Source: a virus. Taken from it: 25,703 nt of DNA. The DNA lies in the IMG/VR virus record IMGVR_UViG_3300044712_002122, positions 1 to 25,703 of that record, one strand, 5' to 3'. The notes under the pieces were generated by a model, which was not told where the DNA came from, made no database searches, and was given only the letters and a program-made list of their open reading frames with translations. Shown in pieces: positions 5,463 through 12,082 of the stretch (the stretch's first letter is position 1; every line of letters starts with the position of its first letter). The position numbers and the translations under genes were made by a program.

Positions 5463-5777
5463 ATGCATCCGGATCGCTACGCCGGCTTGCCGGCAGACCT
5501 CGCGCCCCCTGCGAAAACCGCTGCGGCCATCGCCGCGCGGAATGAGGCGGGCGAGCGCGAGGTCCTCCTCGCGCGCGTGCCGCCGCAGTGGCGCGACTGG
5601 ATCGCCAAGCTGGCGGTGGTGGCCATCGCGGCGCGCATCGTGGACACACCCGGCATCGAGAACCGCCGCCGGATGGTGGCCGAGGTGCCGGAGCCGTGGC
5701 GTGCGGACGTGACCGCGCACGTGCGCCGGCTGTGGGTGGTGGCGCAACTGCGCGCGGCCGAGGCCGAGGCGGCCTGA
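5463..5777 (+). CDS. Conserved hypothetical protein upstream of primase, 104 aa
   Basis: The stop codon TGA at 5775-5777 overlaps the primase ATG by one base (TGATG), so the two genes are translationally coupled. The protein is Ala/Arg-rich and helical: 'ERVxxP-WRDWIAKLAVVAIA' type segments, then 'TPGIENRRRMVAEVPEPWRA' and 'VTAHVRRLWVVAQLRAAEAE'. I recall similar small proteins directly in front of phage primase-helicase genes, but no function. Possible roles are loading or pairing with the primase. The start at 5463 lacks a strong ribosome site, so it could be off by some codons. Confidence 0.65.
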   Translation: MHPDRYAGLPADLAPPAKTAAAIAARNEAGEREVLLARVPPQWRDWIAKLAVVAIAARIVDTPGIENRRRMVAEVPEPWRADVTAHVRRLWVVAQLRAAEAEAA

Positions 5778-8506
5778 TGGCCACACTGGACGACGTCCGC
5801 TTGCAGATGATCGCCGCGGGGATCGACCCGCCGGCGGAGATGCACGCCGACGGCGTGATGCGCCGCTTCGGCCGCGGCAAGCATTCGTGGTACCGGCTGC
5901 ACGAGTTCCTCTCGCGCGAGGGCACGCGCGTGGTGGTGGGGAGCTTCGGCAACTTCATCGGCGCGGACAAGTTCGTCTACAAGGTCCAGGTCGACTGGAA
6001 ACAGATCTCGGTCGATGAGCGCGAGCGCATGCAGCGGGCGTCGGCTGAGGCGGAGGCGCGGCGGGTCGCAAACGACCGGAGTCGCGCCCGCTTTGCCGCC
6101 AACCGCGCGCGCCAGCAGTGGAACTCAGGCCGCGCGGTGCTGCGCGAGGGCGAGCGCTGTCCCTACCTCGATCGGAAGGGCGTGGAGCCCGACAAGGGGC
6201 TGCGCTTCCTGCCAGACGGCACGCTGCTCGTGCCGATGGTGCGTTACGACGTCACCGAGGACCAGGCCGCGGACCCGGCGTACACGGGCCCCATGCCGCT
6301 CGTGGGCCTGCAGAAGATCTCGCCCGATGGTGAGAAGCGCTTCAACAAGGGCATGGCGAAGGAGGGCGCGGCCTGCCGCATCGGCTCCAAGCCGCGTAAC
6401 GGCGATCTCCTGATCATCGCGGAGGGCGCGGCCACGGCGCTGTCGATCCGCATGGCGCTGGATCGCGAGCACCCGGTGTTCGTGGCGTTCGACGCCGGCA
6501 ACCTCGCGCCCGTGGCGCGGATCCTGCGCGCGCTGTATCCGCGCTCGCCGATGCTCTTCGCGGCCGACGATGACGCGTACCTCGAGGCCCAGCTCAACAA
6601 GCGCCTTCGCGACGACTACGGGGTGCAGGCCACTTACCGCGTAGCGATGGGCGAGACGCAGCTCCTCGGCCGCGGCGAGAAGCTCATCGGCATCAGGGCC
6701 GAGGCGCAGCGCGATCCGGCGGGCGTGGAGGGCATCACCGCGGCCATCACGGTGGACGAGGTCACGCGGCCGCTGTCGTTTGTGAACACAGGGCGCTTGA
6801 AGGCGCGCGCAGCGGCCGATGAGGTCGGCAATGCTCGCGTGTGGCGGCCGGTGTTCGAGCGCCGCGAGCTGCACGCGGACCCCGACGGGCCCAAGCTCAC
6901 CGATTACAACGATCTGCACGCGAGTGAAGGCCTCGGGCGCGTACGCGACCAGCTGCTCGCGGCGATCTCCGCCATCCTGGGCGAGCGCGCGGAGCACCGC
7001 GAAGCGCCACAGGGCGAGAATGCCGCGCCGGCTGCGCCTGCGGCTGCGGAGAACGCGCGCGAGGCGGGCGCTGGCGGCTCTGGCGGCTCGCGTGGCGGGG
7101 GCGGCAGGGGTGGCGGCGCGGACAGCGATCCGCCCGACTGGAGCCTTTACCGCACGCTGCTTGATCGCTTCGTGCTCGTGTACCCCAGCGGCGAGGCCTA
7201 TGACCGGCTGCTCGGGCGGCTGGTGAAGATCGAGCACATGCGCAACCTCTTCGGCAAGCGCTACGTCGGCATGTGGATCAACTCCGACGCAAAGCGCGTG
7301 GTGCTCGACGAGAACGTGGTCTTCGATCCGACCGGCGCGGCCGATCCTGAGAAGACGGTGAACCTCTTTCACGGCCTGCCGCTGAAGCCTGACGCCGGCA
7401 AGAGCTGCGCGCGCGTGCTGGAGCTGCTGCAGTACCTCTGCGGCGAGGAGGGGCGCGATATCTCCCCGGTCACCGATTGGGTGCTGCGGTGGCTCGCGTA
7501 TCCGCTGCAGCACGTCGGTGCCAAGATGCGCACGGCCGTGGTGATGTACGGCGACGAAGGCACGGGCAAGAACATGCTCGGCGCCGTGATGCAGGAGATC
7601 TATGGCGACCACGGCTCGGTGATCACGCAGCAGCAGTTGAACAGCCAGTTCAACGGCTGGCTCTCGGCGAAGCTGTTCATCGCGGCCAACGAGGTGGTCA
7701 CGCGCCAGGAGATGACGCACCACGTCGGCCTGCTCAAGCACCTGGTCACCGAGCCCGACATCTTCATCGAGCGCAAGGGCGTGGACGCGCGGCGCGAGAA
7801 CAACCACGCCAACCTGATGTTCTTCAGCAACGAGCTCCAGCCGCTGAAGATCAGCCCGGGCGATCGGCGTTACATGGTGATCCGCACGCCCAGGCCCAAG
7901 CCCGACGAGTTCTACGCAAAGGTGGGCGAGGAGATCCGCGCGGGCGCCGCCGAGGGTTTCTTCGCGCACCTGATGGGCCTGGATCTGGGTGACTTCAACC
8001 CGTTCACCAAGCCGCTCATCACCGAAGCGAAGCGCGACCTCATCGAGATCGGCATGAGCGCGGCGGAGCTCTTCTGGCACGACCTGCACGACGGCACCAT
8101 CGGGCTGCCGTACTGCCCGGCGCAATCGGACCACGTGTATCGCGCGTACCTGCGCTGGTGCTTCCTGAACGGCGAGCGCATGCCGGCGCGGATCAACCGG
8201 TTCATTCCCGACTTCATGAAGCTGAACGGCGTGTCGCGCCGCTCGGTGGATATCCCGCCGCCGGAGCGGCCCGCGGAGGTGAACCTCTTCCTCGCCGGCC
8301 AGGACGCGGTGCTCAAGCAGCGGCGCGTGCTGGTGATGGGCGACGCGGTCGCCGATAGCGACCTCGAGCGACAGCGCATCGCCAAGGGTTGCGCGGACTT
8401 CTACGAAAAGCTGCGCGAGTACACGCGTGGCGAGCAGCAGGGCTCACCCGATGGCGCGCCAGCGCCATCCGACAAGGCCAAACCCGAACCGGAGGCGCCG
8501 CTATGA
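5777..8506 (+). CDS. Phage primase-helicase (Toprim plus SF3/DUF5906-like ATPase), 909 aa
   Basis: This protein likely unwinds the phage origin and primes replication. Residues 1-~110 form an N-terminal module with 'KHSWYRLHEF', and no CHC2/CHCC zinc finger is visible. A Toprim fold follows: the Glu motif 'IAEGAATALS' (Glu216), then 'FAADDDAYLE' with Asp264 and Asp266. A Gly/Ser-rich linker lies at ~431-451. The helicase half has Walker A 'YGDEGTGKN' (Lys598), Walker B-like 'KLFIAANEV' (Glu639), then 'NHANLMFFSNEL' and 'PGDRRYMVIRTP' with a sensor/arginine-finger look. This matches virus-type SF3/DUF5906 helicases as in P4-alpha-like and NrS-1-like primase-polymerases. The ATG overlaps the preceding stop; its own stop overlaps the next ATG, and the repeat array at 8547 begins 41 bases downstream. 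Confidence 0.92.
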   Translation: MATLDDVRLQMIAAGIDPPAEMHADGVMRRFGRGKHSWYRLHEFLSREGTRVVVGSFGNFIGADKFVYKVQVDWKQISVDERERMQRASAEAEARRVANDRSRARFAANRARQQWNSGRAVLREGERCPYLDRKGVEPDKGLRFLPDGTLLVPMVRYDVTEDQAADPAYTGPMPLVGLQKISPDGEKRFNKGMAKEGAACRIGSKPRNGDLLIIAEGAATALSIRMALDREHPVFVAFDAGNLAPVARILRALYPRSPMLFAADDDAYLEAQLNKRLRDDYGVQATYRVAMGETQLLGRGEKLIGIRAEAQRDPAGVEGITAAITVDEVTRPLSFVNTGRLKARAAADEVGNARVWRPVFERRELHADPDGPKLTDYNDLHASEGLGRVRDQLLAAISAILGERAEHREAPQGENAAPAAPAAAENAREAGAGGSGGSRGGGGRGGGADSDPPDWSLYRTLLDRFVLVYPSGEAYDRLLGRLVKIEHMRNLFGKRYVGMWINSDAKRVVLDENVVFDPTGAADPEKTVNLFHGLPLKPDAGKSCARVLELLQYLCGEEGRDISPVTDWVLRWLAYPLQHVGAKMRTAVVMYGDEGTGKNMLGAVMQEIYGDHGSVITQQQLNSQFNGWLSAKLFIAANEVVTRQEMTHHVGLLKHLVTEPDIFIERKGVDARRENNHANLMFFSNELQPLKISPGDRRYMVIRTPRPKPDEFYAKVGEEIRAGAAEGFFAHLMGLDLGDFNPFTKPLITEAKRDLIEIGMSAAELFWHDLHDGTIGLPYCPAQSDHVYRAYLRWCFLNGERMPARINRFIPDFMKLNGVSRRSVDIPPPERPAEVNLFLAGQDAVLKQRRVLVMGDAVADSDLERQRIAKGCADFYEKLREYTRGEQQGSPDGAPAPSDKAKPEPEAPL

Positions 8507-8778
8507 GCGGCAGGGGCTTCATCCCGGTTCGCAAGGGTCTTCTCGCCTGGACGGTCTGGACGGTGTCTGGACGGTGCTTGAGGGTGTGGATAACTCGGAA
8601 ATCTCGTTTCCGATCAACGTCGGCTGGACGGTCTGGACGGTCCGGCCTCGTGCGCGTGCGCGGCCGCGCGTGCGCGCATGCGTGGGGCGCGCGCGTGCGG
8701 GCGCGGGCACGCACGCGCGCGGCCGCGCGTACGCGCGCACGACTGTCCATACCCTCCAGACCAGAGACAAGGAAATGA
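8503..8778 (+). CDS. Doubtful small ORF lying inside the repeat array, 91 aa
   Basis: The ATG overlaps the primase stop as ATGA, like real coupled genes here. However, the product is dominated by the DNA repeats: 'GLLAWTVWTVSGRC', then long Arg/Ala runs coded by the alternating GC tract. Two other frames are also open across the stretch (8427-8783 is one). The parsimonious reading is that the DNA serves as a non-coding origin or control element and that any peptide is incidental. I include it because the coupling signal is present. Confidence 0.28.
   Translation: MSGRGFIPVRKGLLAWTVWTVSGRCLRVWITRKSRFRSTSAGRSGRSGLVRVRGRACAHAWGARVRARARTRAAARTRARLSIPSRPETRK
8585..8593 (-). other. Perfect DnaA box (TTATCCACA on the minus strand)
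   Basis: The plus strand reads TGTGGATAA, the exact complement of the consensus DnaA box TTATCCACA. It lies between two clusters of the CTGGACGGT repeat, followed by a locally AT-richer stretch (about 8590-8618). The match is exact; its use as a host-initiator site is inference from position. A single 9-mer can occur by chance, but it is unlikely exactly inside an iteron array in DNA this GC-rich. Confidence 0.5.
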
Positions 8779-8779
8779 A

Positions 8780-8808
8780 TTGACAGAGGAATCTCGCCTG
8801 GACGGTAG
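8780..8808 (+). promoter_or_regulatory. Candidate promoter for the HTH gene at 8854
   Basis: A consensus -35 box TTGACA lies at 8780-8785. At a 17-base spacing the -10 position (8803-8808, CGGTAG) is poor. A CTGGACGGT copy (8798-8806) overlaps the -10 position, and three inverted copies (8816-8844) follow before the start codon at 8854. If this promoter is active, a protein bound to the repeats would control it. The -35 is convincing; the promoter as a whole is not proven. Confidence 0.35.
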
Positions 8809-8853
8809 CGCGTTGACCGTCCAGCCACCGTCCAGACCGTCCAGGAGACAAGC

Positions 8854-9165
8854 ATGAAGCTGCGCGAACGGTTCCGCATCGATTGGCCCGTGGTGCTGGG
8901 AACGCTGCAGAAGCGGGGTCTGTCGCAGCGACAGATCGCCGATCGCATCGGGTGCAGTCAGGCGCTGCTCTCGCAGCTTGCATCGGGCGAGCGACGCATG
9001 GCTGGGTACGACATCGGCGCGGCCGCGCTGCAGCTGCTCGCCATCACCACGGCCGGCACCGAGCGCATGGACTCGCACGGCGAGGCCTCGAAAGAAATCT
9101 GCACCCAGACAGCAAGTGATTGCCATAGCAATCACGAAAGCTCGGAGACTCACTCACGCGACTAA
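8854..9165 (+). CDS. HTH (XRE-type) DNA-binding protein, 103 aa
   Basis: The ATG at 8854 follows AGGAG within the last inverted repeat copy. Residues ~10-60 form a helix-turn-helix domain: 'VVLGTLQKRGLSQRQIADRI', 'GCSQALLSQLASGERRM', then 'GYDIGAAALQLL'. The rest is a short Ser/His-rich tail. Proteins of this type at the end of a phage early operon often act as late-gene or copy control regulators. Its leader carries the CTGGACGGT repeats, so they are natural candidates for its binding site. A separate palindrome (9116-9135) sits within its own 3' end. The gene ends 34 bases before a strong terminator. Confidence 0.78.
   Translation: MKLRERFRIDWPVVLGTLQKRGLSQRQIADRIGCSQALLSQLASGERRMAGYDIGAAALQLLAITTAGTERMDSHGEASKEICTQTASDCHSNHESSETHSRD
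9116..9135. promoter_or_regulatory. Perfect palindrome GTGATTGC-cata-GCAATCAC
   Basis: Eight-base perfect arms separated by four bases, unusually AT-rich for this genome, inside the last codons of the HTH gene. It has no T-run after it, so it is not a terminator by itself. It looks like a dimer-binding operator and could be the site for the HTH protein or an antitermination/late-control factor. Confidence 0.35.
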
Positions 9166-9199
9166 GGTCGCGCCTCCTTTGGTGATGACGATGCGCCTC

Positions 9200-9234
9200 A
9201 AAGGCCCGCGCGATTCGTGCGGGCCTTTTTCTTT
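9200..9234 (+). terminator. Rho-independent terminator after the early/replication operon
   Basis: A perfect ten-base stem AAAGGCCCGC (9200-9209) pairs with GCGGGCCTTT (9219-9228), with a nine-base loop, followed by a T-rich run (9226-9234). It separates the rightward early operon (Cro-like to HTH gene) from the HNH and late genes. Late transcription therefore either starts after it or needs antitermination. Confidence 0.85.
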
Positions 9235-9285
9235 CGAGGGCAACCAGGTGCAGATGCAAGCGAACAAGATCGGAGCGTTGACCAC

Positions 9286-9654
9286 GTGCCTCGCCGTGCT
9301 CCTTCTCCTTGCAGCGCTGGCTGTGGCCGCCTGGTTGCCGAAGGTGGTCGATGTTCCACGTGTAACGCAAGTGCCCGGCGGCAGCACGATGCTCGGCGAG
9401 GCAAGACTGCAGAGCGTGGGTACGGTGGACGATGGCAGCGAGAGCGAGTCGATTACCTTCGACGGAATCCGCTGTGTGTGGACTGTCGAGGCCGAGGACT
9501 ACTCGTCGCAGCCACGGACGTTGACCACGTTATCCCGCATCGTGGTGACGAGCGACTCATGTGGGACCAGTCCAACTGGCAGTCCCTCTGCGGCTTCTGT
9601 CACAAGTCCAAGACCGCACGCGAAGACCGGCTCCACCCACCCGGGGGGGCATGA
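9286..9654 (+). CDS. HNH endonuclease (packaging-associated), 122 aa
   Basis: The catalytic core is clear: zinc pairs Cys64-x2-Cys67 and Cys102-x2-Cys105, 'DVDHVIPHRGD' with Asp80-His81 and His85, then 'DQSNWQSLCGFCHKSK' with Asn97 and His106. A second Cys cluster lies at the N-terminus (Cys9, Cys13, Cys23, Cys26). The start is uncertain: GTG at 9286 follows GGAG at suitable distance, while GTG at 9217 would lie inside the terminator. In HK97-like phages an HNH protein next to the terminase genes is needed for DNA cutting at cos during packaging; this position matches. Codons here use more A/T third bases than the genes around it. A hydrophobic alternative frame across the same DNA is rejected. 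Confidence 0.87.
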   Translation: MPRRAPSPCSAGCGRLVAEGGRCSTCNASARRQHDARRGKTAERGYGGRWQRERVDYLRRNPLCVDCRGRGLLVAATDVDHVIPHRGDERLMWDQSNWQSLCGFCHKSKTAREDRLHPPGGA

Positions 9655-9752
9655 AATCTCTACCTCGATTCACGCCCTGACCGATTCCCCAACCGCACGC
9701 GTGGCGTCGGGAAATTACGGGGCGGGGGGGTATGCCGCCGGGGAGGGTGTCG

Positions 9753-10292
9753 ATGCCCGCGGGTAGGCCGCCGCTGCCGGCGAACGTTCACGCGCTCAAC
9801 GGCAATCCGTCGAAGAAGCCCGAGGACCAGCTCAAGCCTGGTGCCGAGCCGACGGTCGAGCTGCCGCCGCCGCCCGACGTGCTCAACGAGCAGGCGTGCA
9901 AGGTCTGGTACGAGCTCGGCGAGGACCTGCGCACGCTCGGCCTGATCTCGAAGGTGTACTCGCCGGTGTTCGCGCTGCTGTGCGCGGCGAAGGCCGACTG
10001 GATGCGGCTGCGCGCCGCGCTCGAGAAGGCGTACGCCGCCGGCGCGGAGGACGAGCTCCGCGGCTACGTGGCGAAGTATGAGTCGGGCGCCACGCAGATC
10101 ACCGGCCTGCACGTCGCGCTCAACAAGGCCGAGGAGAAGCTGCTGCGCTACGCGCAAGAGTTCGGCCTCACGCCGGCGAGCCGCACCAAGGTGACGATGG
10201 GCGGCAGCGCGCAGATGGCGCTCTTCCCGACCGAGACCGATCCGATGGCGGCCTTCACGCGCGCGGCCGCCAACGCGACGGGGCGCACGTGA
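9753..10292 (+). CDS. Terminase small subunit, P27 family, 179 aa
   Basis: This subunit recognises phage DNA and hands it to the large subunit. The ATG at 9753 is preceded by GGGGAGG; the in-frame ATG at 9732 overlaps that ribosome site. The N-terminus 'AGRPPLPANVHALNGNPSKK' has the Gly-Arg-Pro...Leu-Asn-Gly-Asn-Pro pattern of P27-type subunits. It is followed by an acidic/Pro linker 'EPTVELPPPPDVLNEQACKV', the helical 'VWYELGEDLRTLGLISKVYS', and the typical end 'EFGLTPASRTKV'. The stop overlaps the large-subunit ATG by one base, so the two are coupled. Confidence 0.9.
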   Translation: MPAGRPPLPANVHALNGNPSKKPEDQLKPGAEPTVELPPPPDVLNEQACKVWYELGEDLRTLGLISKVYSPVFALLCAAKADWMRLRAALEKAYAAGAEDELRGYVAKYESGATQITGLHVALNKAEEKLLRYAQEFGLTPASRTKVTMGGSAQMALFPTETDPMAAFTRAAANATGRT

Positions 10293-12082
10293 TGGAAGCG
10301 GGATTCGTGGCGACGACGGGCCGGAAGCCTCGGCCGACGCAGGGGGCGGGGGCGCGTGCCTCCGCCCCCGCTGTTCGTAAGCGCGTCGTGTACCCGAAGG
10401 ATCCCGCCACCACGTACGCGCGCCAGGTGGTGAAGGGCAAGATCGTCGCCGGCCCGTGGGTGCGCCTCGCGTGCGAGCGGCACCTGCGCGATCTCGTCGA
10501 GGGCCCGAAGCGCGGCCTGCAGTGGAAGCCCGAACTCGCCGAGCGCGTGTTCGCGTTCTTCCGCGCGCTGCGCCTGGCTGACGGGGAGCACGCCGGCCAG
10601 CCGTTCGAGCTGGGTGCGTGGCAGAAGTTCGTCGTCGGGAACCTCTTCGGCTGGCTCGGTGCGGACGGTACGCGGCGCTTCCGCACCGCGTACACCGAGA
10701 TCGGCAAGGGCAACGGCAAGACGCCGCTCGCCGCAGGCCTCGGCCTCTACATGGCGCTCGGTGAGTGCCGCCAGGGCGCGGAGTGCTACTCCGCCGCGGT
10801 GGGCCGCGACCAGGCCGGGATCATGTTCCGCGACGCCTCGCGCTTCCGCAACGCGTCGCCGGCGATGATGAACGCGAGCGTGGAGCACGCCGCGAACATC
10901 AGCTTCCCGGCGCTGAACAGCTTCTTCCGGCCGATCTCCTCCGAGGGCCGCGGCCTGGACGGCAAGCGGGTGTTCTTCGCCGGCGTCGACGAGCTGCACG
11001 AGCACCCGTCGTCCGTCGTGCTCGACAAGATGCGCGCCGGCACCAAGGGCTGGGCCGACGCGCTGATCTTCATGATTACCAACAGCGGGTACGACCGGCA
11101 CTCGGTCTGCTACCAACAGCACGAGTACTCGCTCAAGGTGCTCGAGGAGGTCATCGAGAACGACGCGCACTTCGCGTACGTGTGCGCGCTCGATGAGGAG
11201 GACCGTCGCGTGGACAAGCGCACGAACCTCGAGCGCTGGATGCACGACGAGAAGTGCTGGTTGAAGGTGAACCCGAACCTCGGCGTCTCGATCCAGCCGC
11301 GGTACCTCCGCGAGCTGGTGGCCGAGGCGCGCGAGATGCCCTCGAAGTGGAACATCGTCGCGCGCCTGAACTTCTGCATCTGGACCGAGCAGGCCACGCG
11401 CTGGCTGCCGATGGAGAAGTGGACGGCGTGCGCTCTGCCGGTGGACGCGGAGGCCCTGCGCGGCCGCGAGTGCTTCGGCGGCCTGGACCTCGCGAGCACC
11501 GAGGACATCGCCGCGCTGGTGTGGCTCTTCCCGCCGGTGGCCGAGGGCGAGCGCTGGCAGGTGCTGCCGCGGTTCTGGATCCCGGGCGATCGCATCGCCG
11601 AGCGGGTGAAGCGCGCGCGCGTGCCGTACGACCAGTGGGTGAAGACGGGGCTGATCCAGGCCACCGACGGCAACATCACCGACTACGCGTACATCCGCGA
11701 GCAGATCCTGCAGGACTGCGAGCGCTTCCGTGTACGCGAGATCGCGGTGGACCGCTGGAACGCCACGCAGCTCGTGACGCAGCTGCAGGAGGAGGGGCTC
11801 AACGTGAGCCTCTTCGGTCAGGGCTTCGCGAGCATGAGCGCGCCGGCCAAGGAACTGGAGCGCCTGGTTGCCGGCGAGCTGCTCGCGCACGGCGGGAACC
11901 CGGTGCTGCGCTGGATGGCGGGCAACTGCGCGGTCTCGCAGGACCCGGCGGGCAACATCAAGCCGGATCGAAGCAAGGCGACCGAGAAGATCGACGGGAT
12001 CGTGGCGCTGATCATGGCGCTGGGGCGCGCGGTCGCACTGCATGAGCCCGAGGGGCAGTCCTTCTGGGATGTGCCGGCGTGA
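10292..12082 (+). CDS. Terminase large subunit (HK97-type), 596 aa
   Basis: This is the packaging motor ATPase with a nuclease that cuts concatemers. The N-terminal domain has 'QPFELGAWQKFVVGNLFGW' before Walker A 'IGKGNGKT' (Lys143). Walker B is 'RVFFAGVDELHE' (Asp233-Glu234). The RNase H-like nuclease domain begins near 'CFGGLDLAST' (Asp399), with further acidic positions 'EIAVDRWNA' (Asp487) and 'EKIDGIVALIMALGRA' (Asp568), the usual three-metal-site pattern. Length fits the family (about 550-600). A GTG three bases earlier (10289) is an alternative start. The end overlaps the portal GTG by four bases. Confidence 0.95.
   Translation: MEAGFVATTGRKPRPTQGAGARASAPAVRKRVVYPKDPATTYARQVVKGKIVAGPWVRLACERHLRDLVEGPKRGLQWKPELAERVFAFFRALRLADGEHAGQPFELGAWQKFVVGNLFGWLGADGTRRFRTAYTEIGKGNGKTPLAAGLGLYMALGECRQGAECYSAAVGRDQAGIMFRDASRFRNASPAMMNASVEHAANISFPALNSFFRPISSEGRGLDGKRVFFAGVDELHEHPSSVVLDKMRAGTKGWADALIFMITNSGYDRHSVCYQQHEYSLKVLEEVIENDAHFAYVCALDEEDRRVDKRTNLERWMHDEKCWLKVNPNLGVSIQPRYLRELVAEAREMPSKWNIVARLNFCIWTEQATRWLPMEKWTACALPVDAEALRGRECFGGLDLASTEDIAALVWLFPPVAEGERWQVLPRFWIPGDRIAERVKRARVPYDQWVKTGLIQATDGNITDYAYIREQILQDCERFRVREIAVDRWNATQLVTQLQEEGLNVSLFGQGFASMSAPAKELERLVAGELLAHGGNPVLRWMAGNCAVSQDPAGNIKPDRSKATEKIDGIVALIMALGRAVALHEPEGQSFWDVPA

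Follow-up and report, generated by a model that had tools for sequence, protein, structure and literature searches.

A conserved four-block iteron array directly downstream of a phage primase-helicase gene is very probably a replication origin read by the helicase's own C-terminal domain

A major question raised by this locus is "What is a dense array of one short word doing directly after the gene of a phage primase-helicase, and which protein reads it?" The window, by which we mean the whole stretch of DNA analysed, is a complete virus record of 25,703 bases, and it contains nine exact copies of CTGGACGGT, six on the plus strand and three on the minus strand, all of them at 8547-8844 and none elsewhere in the window (shuffled sequences held a mean of 0.28 copies and a maximum of 2). 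The array adjoins a Toprim/DUF5906 gene (5777-8506, plus strand), the first exact iteron lying 40 bp past its stop codon, so that the count, the strands and the place given in a preliminary description of this DNA all hold. Comparison of the sequences leads us to regard 8547-8844 as very probably the origin from which the phage replicates; the self-loading primase-helicase encoded upstream would bind it through its C-terminal domain and assemble there as two opposed rings.

The array is organized in four blocks around a GC-rich centre. Block I (8547-8575, plus strand) consists of three exact iterons at 8547-8555, 8556-8564 and 8567-8575, with a doubtful fourth copy at 8577-8585 that has two mismatches, and block II (8624-8641, plus strand) is a tandem pair of exact iterons. 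The centre (8642-8741) is 100 bp long and 87% GC, with alternating purine/pyrimidine runs of up to 20 bases. The preliminary description had this middle part alternating throughout; it is indeed GC-rich with much alternation, but the longest strict run is 20 bases (shuffles of its own bases give about 7). Its list of nine repeats was also correct as far as it went but overlooked block III (8742-8759, minus strand), a tandem inverted pair of degenerate copies, of which 8751-8759 (one mismatch) emerged as the tenth copy from a one-mismatch search of the window and the weaker 8742-8750 (two mismatches) was placed as an eleventh by comparison with relatives. We accept both because relatives carry copies at those positions, and with this pair the four-block layout is complete. 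An AT-richer spacer follows (8760-8797, 45% GC in a record of 69% GC), and then block IV (8798-8844), with one plus-strand copy at 8798-8806 and three minus-strand copies at 8816-8824, 8827-8835 and 8836-8844. The long inverted repeat noted earlier is likewise real, 8539-8575 against 8816-8852 being 92% complementary over 37 nt.

Is such an array peculiar to this phage? A profile search supplied 80 viral and 80 bacterial-genome loci, in which we scanned the 350 bp past the helicase stop codon and counted an array as present from a simple repeat score of 15 upward, using other windows from the same loci as controls. Of the 165 regions following the primase stop, 136 attained that score, as against 0 of 495 control windows, in a k-mer scan that includes words of fewer than three different letters, such as GTGTTGGGT. 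Among the 29 of 165 loci below the threshold are some with 8-bp or divergent units; one (L010) has a TCAGACA-type array when read by eye and is counted as a miss because its initiator gene is split and the wrong half was taken. Arrays were thus found in well over 100 viral and prophage loci. The layout is shared among relatives and the 9-mer itself is not: we recognized about 60 distinct iterons by in-register consensus, all with the shared block layout and with a common profile of approximately T-G-T-G-N-N-G-G-G, in which positions 2, 3 and 7 are strongest and position 6 is nearly free. For instance, the one locus that a search for the closest relative with the single protein gave (L008, about half identical) has the same arrangement in the same place with the word GGTGTAGAC, and phages of Pseudomonas, Stenotrophomonas, Moraxella and Halomonas have the array with TGTGTTGGG (the Pseudomonas word), TGTGCGGGA, CCCTGCACA or TCAGACA-type words. 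Since the word changes, searching for it exactly is unsuited to finding relatives; an exact 18-mer search of viral contigs gave four matches, none beside this primase family and at least two in collagen-like coding repeats, and no DNA similarity to the array was found in a phage collection.

Several individual loci deserve mention. The helicase cores of L016 and L017 are 91% identical, and their words are TGGAGAGGG and TGGCGAGGG, respectively; a stray copy of TGGAGAGGG occurs in block III of L017 and one of TGGCGAGGG in block II of L016, so that the two look like a word change caught half-way. Units of 8 bp instead of 9 bp in a similar block order occur in L066, L087, L118 and the Streptococcus phage Sfi21 (L175), e.g. 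CGCGTAAC. TGGACGG-type repeats in both orientations were also seen in a short region of a viral contig (L001:7722-7848) that is without this primase family.

Across the loci, block I usually has 3-4 direct copies that are 9-12 bp apart, block II has 2-3 tandem direct copies, the centre spans about 60-100 bp, block III has 2-3 tandem inverted copies, the III-IV spacer is about 25-40 bp and block IV has 2-4 copies, mostly inverted (in 24 of 84 loci they are direct). The distances between copies, 9, 11-12, 20-21, 31-32 and 43-44 bp, show a periodicity of about 10.5 bp (R=0.74) and thus cluster at multiples of the helical repeat, which places the iterons on a single face of the DNA; in L016 four consecutive steps measure exactly 21 bp. 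The alternating purine/pyrimidine centre is conserved, its longest run having a median of 16 bases versus 6.5 in controls and 6.6 in shuffles of its own bases, and the alternation is significant in 87% of loci, AT-richer ones included. Many centres have a GC-alternating tract and, behind it, an AT-rich stretch; in the window the GC part occupies the entire centre. The III-IV spacer is also AT-richer than the locus around it (median GC 0.48 versus 0.61). A question arising from these observations is why the centre of a phage origin should alternate purines and pyrimidines even where nearly all its bases are G or C.

Which protein reads the word? The gene upstream encodes a protein of 909 aa with a Toprim-type primase and a DUF5906/D5-like superfamily 3 (SF3) helicase (Pfam DUF5906 2e-21, Toprim_3 6e-5; PHROG DNA primase 2e-112), and it is our proposed initiator. 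An AlphaFold2 model of residues 455-909 (60-sequence alignment, pLDDT 92) matched in Foldseek the C-terminal region of the NrS-1 polymerase (5e-21), the SaPI5 primase-helicase (3e-9) and the poxvirus D5/E5 helicases, in agreement with the assignment to the SF3/D5-like helicases. The proposed iteron reader is its C-terminal domain, residues 801-909 (8177-8503, plus strand). Taken alone, this domain was predicted well yet gave no significant Foldseek match, and the window's own segment has no Pfam match; among the C-terminal segments of relatives, 29 of 56 match Pox_D5 and 3 of 56 the Cdc6_C winged helix, and because of these matches a reader of the winged-helix type is likely in the window's helicase too.

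Iteron identity tracks the C-terminal domain of the helicase, not its core or the primase domain. With the helicase core held constant, iteron similarity correlated with similarity of residues 801-909 (partial rho 0.32; the best of 500 label permutations gave 0.14, p<0.002), whereas with the C-terminal domain held constant the correlation with the core was -0.06, in a set of pairs that share ancestry and so are not phylogenetically independent, and with a C-terminal domain that changes more quickly than the core and is the part that changes fastest. When core identity is equal, two loci that share an iteron also resemble each other more in the C-terminal domain (p 7e-12 and below), whereas the identity of their primase domains hardly differs. 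A sliding scan gave some of its highest values at the C-terminal end and mostly low ones in the primase part. L012 and L013 are a natural primase swap with the iteron unchanged: L012 has a Prim-Pol and L013 a PriCT_2+Toprim primase, the primase parts being 20%, the helicases 82% and the C-terminal domains 71% identical, and both carry the same iteron. All of this suggests that the C-terminal domain binds the iterons. Covariation with the iteron rises once more at residues of about 476-525, immediately ahead of the helicase core.

The helix-turn-helix (HTH) protein encoded downstream (8854-9165, plus strand; Pfam HTH_31/HTH_3) had been named as the other possible initiator, an idea the relatives do not support. 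Genes downstream of the arrays fall into 37 unrelated clusters, Q-like antiterminators included, and the window's HTH gene is alone in its cluster. Because the downstream gene varies freely, and the array and its word follow the helicase and its C-terminal domain, we regard the HTH gene as a neighbour outside the origin and its product as no partner of the array.

How does this arrangement compare with known origins? Iteron plasmid and lambda-type origins have tandem sites for an initiator (RepA, O protein), an AT-richer segment and DnaA or IHF sites nearby. Unlike RepA or lambda O, which recruit a host helicase, the initiator proposed for the window is itself the helicase and the primase. Closer parallels are found among self-loading helicases. 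In SaPI elements the iterons lie directly downstream of the rep gene, and the Rep protein recognizes them through its C-terminal domain, it seems as a pair of hexamers (PMC7581432); the SaPI5 primase-helicase is among the nearest solved folds to the window's helicase. For SaPI Rep/SaPI5 and for SCCmec Cch2 the likeness lies in a self-loading helicase with repeats just past its own gene; both are satellite or cassette elements, unlike the phage here, and the Cch2 iterons are shorter (5 nt, three copies). The nearest solved fold, the C-terminal region of NrS-1 polymerase, is a hexameric SF3 helicase fused to a primase, but NrS-1 differs from the window in using a single 8-nt priming motif, present in two copies per genome, and no iteron array (PMC7102993).

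An annotated origin of similar build is that of Sfi21. In its GenBank entry (AF115103) the 302-bp PER element at 34487-34784 is annotated as "origin of replication", as non-coding and as a phage inhibitory sequence; it lies directly after orf382, whose product matches DUF5906 (6e-18) and Pox_D5 (3e-20) and can be aligned to our helicase profile (E 2.5e-6). The PER element is reported to serve as a replication origin and, in many copies, as an inhibitory decoy (PMC6356513). We found 11 GTTAC/GTAAC sites in it, versus at most 4 in control windows, and in terms of GTTACT/AGTAAC scattered copies come first and then two direct copies in tandem; an alternating AT centre separates these from two inverted copies in tandem, and the last copies lie beyond a spacer. 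Sfi21 therefore resembles the window in having its array directly downstream of a DUF5906/Pox_D5 helicase gene and in the same block order; it differs in its GTTACT-like iteron at about 8 bp spacing, its AT-rich centre and its Gram-positive (Streptococcus) host, and in orf382, in which no primase domain was found. Thus the window shares with SaPI Rep and Sfi21 a short-repeat array directly downstream of the (in the window, proposed) initiator gene, and the earlier idea that the primase-helicase reads an iteron-type origin gains strong support from the relatives and from an annotated origin of the same place and anatomy. The spacer following block III in L013, a Pseudomonas phage, contains a stretch, CTTTGATATATAAGGGTTT, that is very similar to CCTTGATATATAAGGGGTTT of Sfi21 (L175:6690-6712).

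If the protein encoded just upstream of the array is a self-loading D5-like (superfamily 3) initiator, origin firing can be pictured as follows. Its C-terminal domain would bind the 9-bp iterons along one face of the helix, blocks I and II and blocks III and IV would gather two opposed hexamer rings, and the duplex would open in or beside the alternating centre or in the AT-richer III-IV spacer. The rings would then unwind outward and the fused primase would make the primers. As iteron and reading domain co-vary, each phage lineage would have an origin word of its own. Two features of the window count against this picture: the centre, at 87% GC, is hard to melt, and the AT-richer spacer is short. 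In addition, GC skew, which had been suggested as a check of the origin, makes no turn at the array in the window.

Are host proteins involved as well? The DnaA box reported earlier, TTATCCACA (8585-8593, minus strand), is exact and the sole one in the window (shuffles give 0.01), and L015, L016 and L017, the three relatives nearest to the window, share it: in all four an exact box adjoins an iteron, following either block I or block IV. Same-size control windows contain essentially no DnaA boxes. Nevertheless, only 3 of 109 non-redundant loci have one within 330 bp of the primase stop, and conserved DnaA boxes, as expected of a DnaA-dependent origin, are not a feature of the class among those 109. 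Of the suggestion that DnaA is a co-initiator there remains that it may assist the origin in the window's clade, nearly all other non-redundant loci being without a box. The small hairpin described with it, TCGGAAATCTCGTTTCCGA (8595-8613, 7-bp stem), is present in the window but is not conserved among relatives; a hairpin between blocks I and II was rejected as a class feature (mean stem 4.0 versus 3.8 in controls). Over the whole region, 16 of 109 loci have an exact match to the IHF consensus where 0.85 would be expected. The III-IV spacer is the commonest place for such a match, and that of the window has none, either exact or with one mismatch. In L015, L016, L024, L095, L097, L136, L146 and L158, among others, such matches lie at a near-constant distance past block III.

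Could the repeats serve some other purpose? They might be operators of the HTH regulator, controlling its own or late genes; a DNA-binding protein is encoded 9 bp past the last copy, and repeated sites can be operators. Against this, the HTH protein has no counterpart among the 37 unrelated clusters of genes downstream of other arrays, the iteron follows the helicase C-terminal domain, 9-11 sites over 300 bp in four conserved blocks are not operator-like and no sigma-70-like promoter was found at 8400-9300, and we consider such a role very improbable. The inverted arms, 37 nt and 92% complementary, could instead act as RNA or single-stranded DNA, forming a large hairpin or cruciform that would be a terminator, an attenuator or a structural element. 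In 24 of 84 loci, however, blocks I and IV cannot pair because they have the same orientation, and the blocks are kept all the same; moreover, the spacing is phased with the DNA helix, no RNA family reached its gathering score (Rfam gave one sub-threshold match, to an unrelated family), and there is no terminator-like site within the array, the sole plus-strand candidate being at 9200-9228. To a structural role of this kind we therefore give very little credence.

A further alternative is an array that is read by the primase-helicase but serves copy control, partition or as a decoy. The crr repeats of P4 are an example of initiator-bound repeats that lie apart from the origin. The Sfi21 element, too, is an inhibitory decoy when multicopy, but it is annotated as the origin and reported to act as one (PMC6356513), most loci have the array beside the initiator gene and the control windows show no other conspicuous array, all of which makes a non-origin function very improbable. 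That the repeats are chance, low-complexity or coding repeats, e.g. of a small gene from 8503, has next to no probability. A 91-codon frame does start there, overlapping the primase stop, and a 9-bp period keeps the frame within a block; the frame is broken between copies, however, copies lie on both strands, a family search with this frame gave no match and relatives build the conserved layout from different sequences, and 136 of 165 regions versus 0 of 495 control windows refutes the idea.

Returning to the origin read by its own helicase, what were the forces that led to so many words in one layout? One speculative scenario, possible but rather less than an even bet, is that the word is a fast-changing origin password: the words (about 60) and the reading domain would co-diversify while the block geometry stays fixed, because a word shared with a resident prophage or satellite would expose the phage to titration or hijacking of its initiator, as with the cloned origin of Sfi21. 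The alternating centre would then act as a B-to-Z switch or as an element sensitive to strain, exploited by the two rings for opening even when it is GC-rich. If the origin reading is true, these loci offer about 60 natural pairs of initiator and origin, and because a reading domain of about 100 residues changes along with the DNA word, swaps could reveal the code by which self-loading replicative helicases recognize DNA. The layout would also serve as an origin finder for many uncharacterised Gram-negative phages and prophages, the place to look being 0-300 bp past the DUF5906 primase-helicase gene. Further downstream in the window, the HTH gene is followed by a strong terminator-like hairpin with a T-run (9200-9228), and an HNH endonuclease gene and the genes of the small and large terminase subunits follow directly (9217-12082); with these genes next to it, the putative origin sits at the border between the replication and packaging genes.
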